64,000 nucleotides of DNA from Candidatus Rokuibacteriota bacterium (GTDB taxonomy: Bacteria > Methylomirabilota > Methylomirabilia > Rokubacteriales > CSP1-6): NCBI GenBank assembly GCA_003221695.1, contig QHSX01000045.1:62001-126000 (forward strand). The letters are read 5' to 3'. Shown piece after piece: positions 58,880 to 64,000 of this stretch (positions within the stretch are counted from its first letter, which is position 1; every line of letters begins with the position of its first letter). Made by a program: the position numbers and the translations under genes. Under the pieces are notes generated by a model. The model had not been told where the DNA came from. It ran no database searches and saw nothing but the letters and a program-made list of their open reading frames with translations.

Positions 58880-59683
58880 TCACTCCGACCTGAATTCTTG
58901 ATAACGCTCGGGTGCGTATCGAGTGGCTAGCAAACCGGTCGCTTCCTCGACTTTGATCGCCTGCACGAGTACGCCTTCCTGCCCGTAGGGTAGGTACGCC
59001 TGGCACTGGCCCGACGGGGTAATGAGACACGTGGCCGATTCTTGGAAGCGCAAAGCATAATTGACACTGGCAAAGTAGATCGTGTTCTCCATGCTGCGCA
59101 TCATCATCGCCTTCTCATAGTAGAGCCCGCTGGCCGAGCCCCACTCAGTCAGACGGACACCTGCTTGATCACTCCCCGTGTGGTGGGGATGAAAGACGAT
59201 CTTGGCGCCCCGCACCGCCGCCCATCGCACCGTCTCGGGATAGCGCCAGCCCTCATGGCAAATCGCCACTCCAAACTTCATCCCGTTGATCTCGAAGAGT
59301 CGCCGGGTATTTCCAGGCACATAGAACTGATCTTCGGTCGGGGCGAGTTGGTTCTTGGTTTGGTATCCCTGAATGTGGCCCCGGGCGTCGATGACAAAGG
59401 CCGCAATTTGCCGGCCCGCCTCCGTGAGCCTGTCCATCCCGAGGATCGTGGCCACCGCATACGTTCGCGCCCACTGCGCCACGGTCTGGAGTGCCCGTTC
59501 CTGCTGCGTCTGATCAAAAGGCAAGACTTCAAAATCCTGTCCCCGCAAGCCTGGGAGATAGGCTTCCGGGAGACACACGATCTCCGCGCCTTGGGCCGAA
59601 GCTTCGGACAGGAGCCGCTTGATCTTCCCTAAGCCCTCATCAAGGGCTGAGGCGATACAAGGCGACGCCAGGGCAACGATCAT
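58880..59683 (-). CDS. Carbon-nitrogen hydrolase (nitrilase superfamily)
   Basis: A 267-aa enzyme with the Glu-Lys-Cys triad: Glu40 (CLPEAYLPG), Lys110 (YQTKNQLAP) and Cys142 (AICHEGWRYPE). It hydrolyses amides or nitriles; the substrate is unknown. The start at 59683 is supported by GGAGGT five to six bases upstream. Codon use has more A and T than genes before 58.9 kb, so it may be acquired DNA. Confidence 0.88.
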   Translation of the reverse strand: MIVALASPCIASALDEGLGKIKRLLSEASAQGAEIVCLPEAYLPGLRGQDFEVLPFDQTQQERALQTVAQWARTYAVATILGMDRLTEAGRQIAAFVIDARGHIQGYQTKNQLAPTEDQFYVPGNTRRLFEINGMKFGVAICHEGWRYPETVRWAAVRGAKIVFHPHHTGSDQAGVRLTEWGSASGLYYEKAMMMRSMENTIYFASVNYALRFQESATCLITPSGQCQAYLPYGQEGVLVQAIKVEEATGLLATRYAPERYQEFRSE

Positions 59684-59779
59684 GGATGACCTCCGATGAG
59701 AATCTCGACCACGATTAGGTTGGTGAAACACATGCCTCGACGATCTCAGCCCTTGGGCACCAGGTCCTGTCTCATGATT

Positions 59780-60490: not shown

Positions 60491-60778
60491 AGTCTTCGCG
60501 GCCTCTGGTACCGGCATCATAGTTCCCAGAAACAGAAAGCCGCAAGGCGCCGCCGGCGCCACGGGGCGGATCAGCGGGGCCTAACTACCTCAGCACGCAG
60601 AACCCTTGCGCCTCGATGCCGAGGGCGACGTTGAACTTGCTGCGGAACACGCGCGTCGCAAGCACCCGTTGATTTTAGGGCGTTTAGCTTGCAGATGGAG
60701 GCAGAACGACGCACGTTCTAGCTTGAATCTGTCACCCAGCTGTCACCAGAAATCGCCGATTGTGATTTCACGCGTCGC
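60491..60778. other. Gap without a complete gene
   Basis: A 288-bp stretch. On the minus strand, a frame ending TAG at 60585-60587 reads VLATRVFRSKFNVALGIEAQ and continues for six residues. It looks like the end of a real protein, but no start or upstream half was found, so it is at most a remnant. Nothing else is recognised. Confidence 0.4.
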
Positions 60779-61162
60779 TCACCGAATGGCCTCTCCCGTC
60801 CATCGATCCCTGTCCGCCCAGTATGGACACGCAGGGCATTTCTCCCCGACCGCGTAGTCGACGCCTTCTTCGTGTGGGCACCCGATGATCCCCGGACTTA
60901 TCACGACAGTCTTCACGTGATGGGCCGCCATGAAGTCAAGCGCGGCGCCGCAGGCATCCTGGTCGAACCGCGCATCTGCCTCGGCAGAATTCCAGCGCTC
61001 CAGCGCAGAAGGTTCGGCGCCCTCCGCGAGGATCACGCCGACTGCTACCTTTGTGGCTCTGCTGGCGTCTGGTCCGTAGTACGCGACCGTTGCGACTGGG
61101 TAGCCCCGGAAGCCTCGTCCTGATGTTTCCCGCAGCGCCGCAAAGCGGCCAGAACGTGCCAT
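60779..61162 (-). CDS. Hypothetical protein, 127 aa, Cys-rich C-terminus
   Basis: A soluble protein with an alpha/beta part (YPVATVAYYGPDASRATKVA, HHVKTVVISPGIIG) and a C-terminal Cys cluster in IIGCPHEEGVDYAVGEKCPA plus a following Cys, which could bind a metal. No family is recognised. It follows the toxin-antitoxin pair on the same strand, with lower GC than the main chromosome. Confidence 0.55.
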   Translation of the reverse strand: MARSGRFAALRETSGRGFRGYPVATVAYYGPDASRATKVAVGVILAEGAEPSALERWNSAEADARFDQDACGAALDFMAAHHVKTVVISPGIIGCPHEEGVDYAVGEKCPACPYWADRDRWTGEAIR

Positions 61163-61248
61163 CCGACCGTACCTCCCTGCGCTACCAGGTTGTCGAATGT
61201 GCCATATGAGCCGCGGGGCGCCTTCGCCCCCTCGGGTGCATGCGTTCG

Positions 61249-61503
61249 TTAATCAAGCAGCCGGTCGTAATCGGCATGGGTGCCGATCCAAAACCACACG
61301 AGCCCGTCTTTCGCTTCCACGGCCAGGGCGCGGTAGTGGGCTCCAACCCGAGCCGACCAGAAGCGACCGACCTTTTTGAAGTGGAGCGACGGGTGCCGCG
61401 GGTCTTGCTTCAGGCGCGCGTATGCTTGGTCGGCGAGATTCTGGACGTCCGACGGTAAGGCCCGGTAGGACGCCCAGAAATCGGGAGACGCGTGATGAGT
61501 CAG
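61249..61503 (-). CDS. ParE-like toxin of a type II toxin-antitoxin system, CTG start
   Basis: An 84-aa protein that lacks any ATG, GTG or TTG. In frame it reads LTHHASPDFWASYRALPSDV, then HPSLHFKKVGRFWSARVGAH and WFWIGTHADYDRLLD. This pattern is that of a small ParE/RelE-related toxin family whose members start at the position of this first Leu (usually MNH-ASP-FW). The CTG at 61503 overlaps the antitoxin stop (CTGA), so translation is likely coupled. Inhibition of gyrase or mRNA cleavage cannot be told apart. Confidence 0.65.
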   Translation of the reverse strand: MTHHASPDFWASYRALPSDVQNLADQAYARLKQDPRHPSLHFKKVGRFWSARVGAHYRALAVEAKDGLVWFWIGTHADYDRLLD

Positions 61504-61700
61504 AGAGGTTTTGTCTTACCGGCTGCGTGGTCACGAAGGGCTTTCTCGGCAAGGTCGTCAAGCCGCCCCGCATGAACGTCGCGCTCGAGTTGACGGTCCC
61601 AGGCTGCCCAGTCGTATTCCAGGAACCAGGCGCGAAACTGCGCAAGCTCGCCCGGGGAGAGCGCTTGAATCTCTTGCTCGATCTTTTCGACCTTGCCCAT
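61500..61700 (-). CDS. Antitoxin-like protein, 66 aa
   Basis: A small acidic/helical protein (MGKVEKIEQEIQALSPGELA, then WFLEYDWAAWDRQLERDVHAG), with the LSPGELAQFRAWF pattern common to antitoxins paired with the toxin encoded directly downstream. No clear DNA-binding fold is seen. It is upstream of the toxin with overlapping stop/start, the usual order. The module is close to the cassette array; toxin-antitoxin cassettes are common in such arrays. Confidence 0.65.
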   Translation of the reverse strand: MGKVEKIEQEIQALSPGELAQFRAWFLEYDWAAWDRQLERDVHAGRLDDLAEKALRDHAAGKTKPL

Positions 61701-61764
61701 GACCCTTAGTCGGTAACCTAGTCTAACATCCTGCCGGGCCCCGAAGAAAAGCGGCCATCCTGCT

Positions 61765-61856
61765 GGCTAACGCACGGCTGAGCGGCCGGCGCACCACGAT
61801 GTGCGGCGTAGCGACTCGCACTTCATGCGCCGGCCCGCTGCAGCCGCTGGTTGGGC
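61765..61856 (-). other. attC-like integron recombination site 1
   Basis: 92 bp between GGCTAAC (61765-61771) and GTTGGGC (61850-61856). The inner arms CGGCTGAGCGGCCGGCGCA and TGCGCCGGCCCGCTGCAGCC are complementary with a few unpaired bases, the hallmark of attC. It lies three bases after the stop of the ICMT-like gene, where cassette sites are expected. Confidence 0.7.
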
Positions 61857-61859
61857 GGC

Positions 61860-62360
61860 TTACAGCCAGCGGCGCACGGACGCCTTATAGTCCAAGTACT
61901 GCGCACCGAATCTCCGTTCCAGGTACTGCTCTTCTCTGCGTATGACGACGTAGTGAATGAGCGCCGCCGCCCCGGCGAGCGTGGCCAGCAGCCACACGCT
62001 GTTGACCCAGATCGAGATACCGAGCTGCAACAGGGAGAACGCCAGATAGATCGGGTTCCGGCTAAAGCGATAGGGCCCCGTCCGCACGATCACGGTGGTG
62101 GGCTTTCGGGCGGGCACGGGCGTGCCGGCCGCCCGGAATGTCGTGACCGAGTAGGCGAACAGCGCTATGGCAACCACAACGAGAGGCGCTCCGAGCGGCA
62201 CAGCGAGCGTTCCCGGAAGGAATGGGAATGGCGTGGCGAGCTGGATCACCGCCCCTGAGACGAGCGAAGTCAGATACACAAGCGGCGGGCGAATGAGACC
62301 GAGATTCGCAACGTCCTGCGCCGCGCTTGGGGGCCCACAGCTCTGTGGTCTGGTAGTCAT
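61860..62360 (-). CDS. ICMT/PEMT-like membrane methyltransferase, cassette gene
   Basis: A 166-aa membrane protein with about four helices. The conserved C-terminal half is RTGPYRFSRNPIYLAFSLLQ, then EEQYLERRFGAQYLDYKASV followed by RRWL, the SAM-binding and lipid-facing signature of isoprenylcysteine carboxyl methyltransferase/phospholipid N-methyltransferase relatives in bacteria. Its substrate is unknown. It fills the space between attC sites 1 and 2, with only about 37 bp ahead of the ATG, as in promoterless gene cassettes. Confidence 0.87.
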   Translation of the reverse strand: MTTRPQSCGPPSAAQDVANLGLIRPPLVYLTSLVSGAVIQLATPFPFLPGTLAVPLGAPLVVVAIALFAYSVTTFRAAGTPVPARKPTTVIVRTGPYRFSRNPIYLAFSLLQLGISIWVNSVWLLATLAGAAALIHYVVIRREEQYLERRFGAQYLDYKASVRRWL

Positions 62361-62397
62361 GGTCTTCGGTCCTGCAAACCGATCGATCGACTAAGCC

Positions 62398-62481
62398 GCC
62401 CAACGTTGCCGTTAAGCTGCGGCCGATCGACCGAGCCGAAGGCGAGGTAGGCGGCCGTCAGCTTCAACGGCCTGGTTGGGC
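62398..62481 (-). other. attC-like integron recombination site 2
   Basis: 84 bp bounded by perfect GCCCAAC (62398-62404) and GTTGGGC (62475-62481). Inner arms GTTGCCGTTAAGCTGCGGCC and CGGCCGTCAGCTTCAACGGC pair along their length with two extrahelical bases. It is the clearest site of the three and lies ten bases after the VOC gene stop. Confidence 0.85.
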
Positions 62482-62491
62482 AGCAGCGGAC

Positions 62492-62884
62492 TCATTCGGC
62501 GATAACAATCCGGTTACCTTCGGGATCCGCGACCATGCTCTCGTAGTATCCATCGCCGGTCCGTCTTGGCCCATCGAGAAGCGGGAACCCGTCGCCCTGC
62601 AGTCGCTTTGTAAGGGCGTCGACGGCGGCCCGAGAGCCCAGCTCCACACCCAGGTGAGCGTACCCGATGAACTCGCGCGAGCTCTGTGAATCTGGGACCC
62701 TTTGGATGTCTGGTCGGCACATCAGTTCCAACCGCCCGCCTCCAGGAAACGTCAGGAAATACGAAGTGAATCTCTTACGTTCATTCTCATATTTCAGGTT
62801 CGACCGCGCGTCGAAGTACTTCTCGTAGAACGTGCGCATCAGCTCGATGTCCATAGCCCAGATTGCGACATGGTCAAGCTTCAT
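62492..62884 (-). CDS. VOC family protein, cassette gene
   Basis: A 130-aa glyoxalase-fold protein. MKLDHVAIWAMDIELMRTFY opens the first half, with His4 as a metal ligand, and FIGYAHLGVELGSRAAVDAL the second, with a Glu in GNRIVIAE at the end. Such cassette proteins include bleomycin- and fosfomycin-resistance types, but the substrate cannot be told. The start at 62884 has AGGTG seven bases upstream; a GTG at 62893 is in frame. It is bounded by attC sites 2 and 3. Confidence 0.85.
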   Translation of the reverse strand: MKLDHVAIWAMDIELMRTFYEKYFDARSNLKYENERKRFTSYFLTFPGGGRLELMCRPDIQRVPDSQSSREFIGYAHLGVELGSRAAVDALTKRLQGDGFPLLDGPRRTGDGYYESMVADPEGNRIVIAE

Positions 62885-62952
62885 TGTGTTCACCTGTCAG
62901 ACACTGGTCTCGAACTGAGCAACTCCGCCCCAGGGTCTCCACATGAGTCGCG

Positions 62953-63015
62953 GCCCAACGTCCGGCGTCAGCCACGCCCGTTTTACGGGCGTCGGCTGCA
63001 CGCCATTGTTAGGGC
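62953..63015 (-). other. attC-like integron recombination site 3
   Basis: 63 bp between GCCCAAC (62953-62959) and GTTAGGGC (63008-63015). Arms GGCGTCAGCCACGCCCG and CGGGCGTCGGCTGCACGCC pair with two extrahelical bases around a TTTTA loop. It lies 27 bp after the stop of the racemase-like gene. Confidence 0.8.
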
Positions 63016-63042
63016 GCGATCTCGCCGAGGGCGCTGCCTAAC

Positions 63043-64000
63043 TCATAGTGCGAACTTTGCGACGGCCTTCTCGTCCCACTCGATGCCTTGGCCAGGTTTG
63101 TCAGGAACCATGAGATGTCCCTCCTGGATTGCGAAGGGCTCGGACAGTATCGGGTCGGCCCAATCTTGCCACTCAAGCCAGTGTGCGGTATCGGTGACGC
63201 GCATGAGATGCGCAGCCATCTCTGGATAGAGATGTGTGGACATTGGAATTCCCGCGGCGCTCGCGATCGCTGCCGCCCGCAGCCATCCGGTGACACCGCC
63301 AATGCGCATGAGGTCGGGCATTACATAGTCGCCCGCGCCAGCAAGCATTGCTTGATACAGCATGCGGGGACCGTAGAAGTTCTCCCCGAGCTGAACCGGT
63401 GTCTTCAGCTCACGCGCTAGCTGAGCGTAGCCCGGAATATTGTCGTAGGTGGTAGGTTCCTCAAACCAATAGAGTCCTTGGTCGTCGAGACCGTGGCACC
63501 GAACGAGCGCATCACCAAGTGACAAACCTTGGTTGAAGTCGCACATCAACTTTACCGAGGAACCAGCGGCCTCTCGGACGGCGGCGATAGCCGCCAGATC
63601 GTCGGTCAGTCTTTCTCTTCCCAGTCTGAGCTTCAGACCGGTGAACCCCCCCTCCGCCACAAGCGCTGCCGCCTCAGTAGCCAGCTTCTCCACTGGCGTC
63701 AACCATAAGCCGTTGCTGTTGTAGGCGGGGACCGGACCCACCGTCCCGCCGAGGAACACGGCGAGCGGCATGTCGGCGGCTTTGGCCAGTGCATCCCACG
63801 CCGCCATATCGAGGCCTGATACCGCGATCAGCGATACCCCTTCTCGCCCGACGAGATGCAGCGAGCCGACCCCTCGGCGATAGCCGTCGAACGGCGCCAC
63901 AGGTTGGCCTTTTGCCGCTTGGGCGAGATCTTCGATCGCAGGAACGATGTAACGCACGGATTGCTTGATATAAGGCTCGAGGTAGCTGTGACCCACAACT
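63043..64000 (-). CDS. Mandelate racemase-like enzyme, 5' end cut by window, cassette gene
   Basis: About 319 residues are visible and roughly the first 65 lie outside. The MR-type metal ligands are present: Asp in MCDFNQG, Glu in YWFEEPTT and Glu in LGENFYGP. The MR Asp-His dyad is also present (MPDLMRIGGVTGW and STHLYPEMAAH), as is the HWLE glutamate. KTKIG of mandelate racemase reads KLRLG, so the Lys166 base is Arg. It belongs to the MR subgroup, but mandelate is unlikely as the substrate. It is followed by attC site 3. Confidence 0.87.
   Translation of the reverse strand, partial: VVGHSYLEPYIKQSVRYIVPAIEDLAQAAKGQPVAPFDGYRRGVGSLHLVGREGVSLIAVSGLDMAAWDALAKAADMPLAVFLGGTVGPVPAYNSNGLWLTPVEKLATEAAALVAEGGFTGLKLRLGRERLTDDLAAIAAVREAAGSSVKLMCDFNQGLSLGDALVRCHGLDDQGLYWFEEPTTYDNIPGYAQLARELKTPVQLGENFYGPRMLYQAMLAGAGDYVMPDLMRIGGVTGWLRAAAIASAAGIPMSTHLYPEMAAHLMRVTDTAHWLEWQDWADPILSEPFAIQEGHLMVPDKPGQGIEWDEKAVAKFAL

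Follow-up and report, generated by a model that had tools for sequence, protein, structure and literature searches.

Does the end of this window, a 64,000-nucleotide stretch of DNA (C34:62001-126000) from a 4.6-Mb, 109-contig Rokubacteria MAG rated 100% complete and derived from an uncultured bacterium of soil, hold an integron cassette array, and where is the integrase that would have built it? Integron gene cassettes are movable one-gene units, best known as spreaders of antibiotic resistance; their attC sites, folded from the bottom strand, are recognised by the integron integrase, which exchanges DNA at G^TT. The window end is very probably the distal part of such an array on a Rokubacteria chromosome, built by an integron integrase and now probably fixed.

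Three palindromes, each lying 3' of a single minus-strand gene, had been described in the initial annotation, and their positions were confirmed. The distance from the stop codon to the first R box was 28 nt for attC1, 10 nt for attC2 and 3 nt for attC3, and that from R' to the next start codon was 59, 37 and 64 nt, respectively. The sites were located as follows, attC3 being the last intact attC of the array.

62953 to 63014, minus strand: attC1, the attC of the racemase cassette (CCCTAAC...GTTGGGC; crossover G^TT with the G at 62959)
62398 to 62481, minus strand: attC2, the attC of the VOC cassette (GCCCAAC...GTTGGGC; crossover G at 62404)
61765 to 61856, minus strand: attC3, the attC of the ICMT cassette (GCCCAAC...GTTAGCC; crossover G at 61771)
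C34:126214-126273, just past the window end: a fourth attC, found as a match to model R2 (below)

The RYYYAAC/GTTRRRY-type ends and extrahelical arm bases claimed for the palindromes were seen in all three sites within the window. The ends enclosed an imperfect palindrome, with a single box base deviating from consensus in each of attC1 and attC3, and arm-versus-arm alignment placed two or three extra unpaired bases in the gene-strand 5' arm of each site (two in attC1). Folding as single-stranded DNA gave z = -3.2 to -5.3 against shuffled sequence (-4.6/-5.3 for attC1). Unpaired bases confined to one arm fix which strand of an attC is recombined. The aadA1 attC of class 1 integrons shares with these sites the R boxes, the arm that carries the additional bases and the crossover motif.

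The genes, annotated as unrelated (ICMT-like, VOC and mandelate racemase-like), were assigned by Pfam to three different families. They and the two mobile units delimited within the window were:

63043 to 64000, minus strand: mandelate racemase/enolase-family gene (PF13378, 8e-57), cut by the window end
62492 to 62893, minus strand: VOC/glyoxalase-family gene (PF00903, 1e-16)
61860 to 62360, minus strand: PEMT/ICMT-type methyltransferase gene (PF04191, 7e-14; PF04140, 1e-7)
62404 to 62958, minus strand: VOC cassette as a mobile unit, from the TT of attC1 to the G of attC2
61771 to 62403, minus strand: ICMT cassette as a mobile unit; the match in Rokuibacteriota AR17 ends near both unit ends

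At its full length the racemase gene encodes 364 aa (L009 1043-2137) with PF02746 and PF13378. A PADLOC search of the genes gave no match. Class 1 integrons carry resistance genes, whereas the window cassettes carry metabolic-type enzymes.

The attC covariance-model check proposed with the initial annotation was run using two models, and the sites matched, clearly for two of the three with the first model and for all three with the second. For model R1, 16 attC sites were taken from a plasmid of Gemmatirosa, from class 1 integrons and from a plasmid of Shewanella, all of them outside Rokubacteria, and the model was run over the 64-kb window with filters off. It placed attC1 first in the 64 kb (E=1e-6) and attC2 second (E=0.0036); attC3 came fourth (E=0.26), just after a non-attC match at 0.2, and was not separated from background by R1. 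Model R2 was obtained by iteration from 45 R1 matches, attC1 and attC2 among them and attC3 held out, and gave E=9e-12 for attC1, 4e-11 for attC2 and 1.6e-8 for attC3, with the next independent match in the window at 0.24. Pair counting over the 45 sites of R2 showed strong covariation, in an alignment that had itself been fitted to structure. An Rfam search of the last 6 kb of the window gave no attC-type match.

The palindromes might instead owe their likeness to attC to chance and be transcription terminators or dispersed repeats, and GC-rich DNA does yield some random motif-plus-stem matches. Motif-plus-stem scores of at least 50 were reached three times in the window, all in the last 2.3 kb, and once in total over 60 random 64-kb replicas, a score that is weaker evidence than the models and not decisive alone. 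Against chance stand the R1 and R2 scores, the covariation across the 45 sites and the breaks in homology at the crossovers (below), together with an attC-model search of 40 genomes of other groups, which returned zero matches in 22, two GC-rich actinobacteria included. The terminator or chance-repeat reading is left with a negligible probability and is already refuted for practical purposes.

Mobility of the cassettes was examined by a DNA search of all three in 57 family genomes. The ICMT cassette matched AR17 at 85%, ungapped, over 61769-62407, with ends no more than 4 bases from both crossovers, and its neighbours in the window were without a match at the AR17 ICMT locus. AR17 appears to be family genome G006, in which the search found ICMT at 85%; a 108-bp piece was found in G010. 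The VOC cassette was found in G019, G014, G018, G013, G017, G026 and G009 at 89-95%; its homology covered 62466-62960 in G019 (95%) and 62470-62972 in G014 (89%), beginning there at a GTTGGGC crossover. The racemase was found in G016, G019 and G020 at 72-89%, with weaker matches elsewhere in the family. The sets of genomes differed among the three cassettes, and no conserved order of the three genes lacking attC sites was found in the family; such an order had been named as what would refute the cassette interpretation. Recurrence in different relatives, with ends at or near crossover points, indicates that the cassettes have moved singly. The ICMT match in AR17, the VOC matches in G019 and G014 and the array end in G001 (below) identify the units as integron gene cassettes, that is, one short gene with an attC, mobile as a unit and ending at G^TT. 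The sequence and structure of the sites, their model scores and the movement of single cassettes among relatives all support the original interpretation.

An ICMT gene at 87% nucleotide identity was also observed on a contig binned to Verrucomicrobia (L013 4127-4713), the match including R'' and the first half of attC3; no recognisable attC was found at that locus. The copy reflects either cross-phylum transfer or a binning error.

The integrase and attI, if present, had been expected beyond position 64000. C34 ends at 127271, inside a transposon and 1.3 kb past the window, and this remaining 1.3 kb held the rest of the racemase gene, the fourth attC, another cassette and the transposon end. 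Further cassettes above 64000 were thus present as anticipated, but neither an integrase nor an attI was, and no intI or attI linked to the window's array was found on C34. Across the genome, R2 located about 40 attC places on C11, C21, C28, C32, C34, C35, C46 and C53. Two integron integrases were found, on C28 and C11, neither adjoining the window's array and both damaged; no intI with IntI-specific features stood beside the array. The C28 intI starts near residue 146 (IntI1 numbering), without approximately the first 145 residues, and in the C11 intI a central block that includes R146 and K171 is deleted. A candidate attI crossover lies 3' of the C28 intI (GTTAGAC, about 180 bp past the 3' end of the gene; none was present on C34), followed by three cassettes. 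Other tyrosine-recombinase matches (C91, C72 and weaker ones) did not reach the cut-off for integron integrases and were left out of the count.

Reading by eye of L010 1893-2770 (C28) showed the truncated intI abutting what looks like the end of another tyrosine recombinase, on the opposite strand, and a tRNA-Arg-like gene, which suggests that the 5' part of this intI was lost through an element integrating at the tRNA.

The transposon in which C34 ends is a DDE element (PF13751, PF05598) with the ends GAGCCTGTAGAAAAACC and GGTTTTTCTACAGGCTC, the right end slightly varied in this genome (G000). We take it to be IS1182-like. It was seen at these loci:

L131 5754-7521 (C21): this genome
L169 4147-end (C11): this genome
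L009 2839-end (C34, just past the window): this genome
L132 1-435 (C46): this genome
L164 (G014) and L165 (G018): relatives

At every end seen, the transposon was placed immediately at the GTT core of an attC R box, its left end after a complete attC ending in GTT and its right end before the GTT of the next cassette, and its GAGC restores a GTTRRRY box. The element looks to be attC-targeting, possibly with a 3-bp duplication of GTT. The IS1111-attC group, named in the literature, is a known analogue from another family.

At the distal end, the flank (60564-61771) was 92% identical in the same-genus genome G001, and the homology halted at the crossover base, past which G001 has another unit, made up of two small genes with an attC. 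The features of the flank were:

61500-61700 and 61253-61498, minus strand: two small genes, 92% conserved in G001; probable fossil cassette
61192 to 61254, minus strand: probable decayed attC (GATTAAC...ATTCGAC, crossover GTT lost; R2 E=1.6 only)
60566 to 60647, minus strand: 82-bp copy of the 3' terminus of an AhpD-like gene, 93% identical to that of the intact C11 gene; putative island end

The small genes of 61253-61700, presumably a RelE/ParE-type toxin-antitoxin pair, had no match in Pfam, NCBIfam or PADLOC. A degenerate site occurs in G001 at the same place as the decayed attC, and 61192-61700, with the two small genes and the degenerate attC, is a probable fossil cassette at the array end. 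At the right end of C11 the AhpD-like gene is intact (direct repeat at L169 3927-4008); an attC lies 45 bp beyond it, and then comes the left end of the transposon. The array is probably part of an island bounded on either side by a copy of this gene's 3' end. Since different DNA lies 3' of the AhpD-like gene in G001-G003, the gene end may be an integration hotspot. The simplest reading makes C11 and C34 neighbours across the transposon, an arrangement that we infer; C46, which starts in the same transposon, is an alternative neighbour. As a bridge between C34 and C28, C46 was rejected: its ends match both at about 99%, which is inexact, so that C46 probably represents either a strain variant or an alternative neighbour. 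That the array came from contamination of the MAG is argued against by the adjoining flank, which is about 89-94% identical to same-genus genomes.

Clusters of attC sites that lack an integron integrase (CALIN) are defined by at least two attC less than 4 kb apart and no linked intI (IntegronFinder 2.0, PMC9024848). Four attC were found here in 2.5 kb, and the end of C34 was reached without an intI. With no local integrase, and with the two of the genome on other contigs and truncated or deleted, the locus is locally a CALIN in an island-like setting, a known kind of system. As in other CALIN, the attC are in tandem and in the same orientation with no integrase within reach, and the damaged integrases elsewhere in the genome fit the proposed origin of CALIN from degraded integrons; the host lineage, the attC in nearly all family genomes and the island-like setting differ from known CALIN.

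A complete working integron, with its intact intI and attI missing from the assembly or carried by other strains, was weighed against this. An intact integrase may have escaped the fragmented MAG: C34 breaks inside a repeated transposon, and intact integrases occur in family genomes. In addition, the short array contigs C46 (L132), C32 (L130) and C53 (L129) share ends at about 99% with one another and with C28 (L010) and C34 (L009), as strain variants would, and these five contigs differ in cassette content despite the shared ends, as expected of strain-level variation of the array. The MAG is rated complete, however, and its two integron integrases are damaged, and the AhpD-like repeat suggests that the other end of the array lies on C11, where gene, attC and transposon follow one another with no integrase between. 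A complete integron is on balance quite unlikely.

It is also improbable, if conceivable, that an integrase located elsewhere inserted the cassettes singly into ordinary sites of the chromosome and that they never formed the array of a former integron. The attC groups on at least 8 contigs and the lack of intI or attI beside the window's array would agree with such insertions, but four consecutive cassettes in the same orientation, with the probable fossil cassette beyond, resemble a tandem array. In the favoured reading, an integrase-built array, each unit is one gene with its attC, and units enter, leave and move one by one through integrase-driven exchange at G^TT of the folded attC bottom strand. 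We infer construction by such an enzyme from the anatomy and structure of the sites, the gain and loss of single units and the related integrases. With no local integrase, and with damage to both of the genome's integron integrases, the array is now probably fixed unless an integrase acts in trans.

In relatives, the VOC, racemase and CN-hydrolase genes were seen in two states, with an attC and without one (loci L146-L150, L152-L156, L176), and the sequence shared by the two kinds of copy often stopped at the ORF ends or close to them. In the window the CN-hydrolase gene (58880-59731) had no attC; in same-genus G003 (92%) it was flanked by attC. Since these genes also occur outside cassettes, not all of their movement need be integrase-mediated. 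Some pairs could be cassette births rather than decays, in which case the family would record the acquisition of attC by ordinary genes; we regard this as doubtful.

No 16S gene was found in the MAG, so its placement rests on rpoB, which was 89% identical to that of AR17 and at most 65% in any long match to other phyla, and on the membership of AR17 in the same family. Of the 57 family genomes, 26 had an integron-integrase match at E<=1e-40, 24 of them above the NCBIfam curated cut-off. Where attC lay near intI in family loci they were always on its 3' side, as on C28 and C11 of this genome. The same arrangement is seen in inverted chromosomal integrons, already known from Treponema (PMC3607928) and from an inverted IntI clade (PMC8352920), with archaeal integrons (PMC9668308) as a further comparison, although the window array itself has no linked integrase to orient against; in class 1 integrons, unlike the Rokubacteria family loci, the integrase is divergently oriented. 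The closest integrase in the plasmid collection (67%) belongs to the integron of Gemmatirosa kalamazoonensis plasmid 1, which is inverted too but differs from the window array in its intact integrase, long array and uniform attC of about 96 bases. This lineage is absent from a 2021 review of phyla with known integrons (PMC8618304), and no work on integrons in Rokubacteria was found in the literature outside subscription journals.

What is less ordinary here is the host lineage and the near-universal occurrence of attC sites within it, with matches in 54 of the 57 family genomes and in all 35 of the best genomes. The VOC copies at 89-95% across genera and the methyltransferase at 85-87% in AR17 and in the Verrucomicrobia-binned contig suggest wide exchange, and genes that occur in both states, with attC and without, could open the origin of cassettes to testing. 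With attC sites this widespread in the family, these soil bacteria would amount to a large pool of mobile genes.
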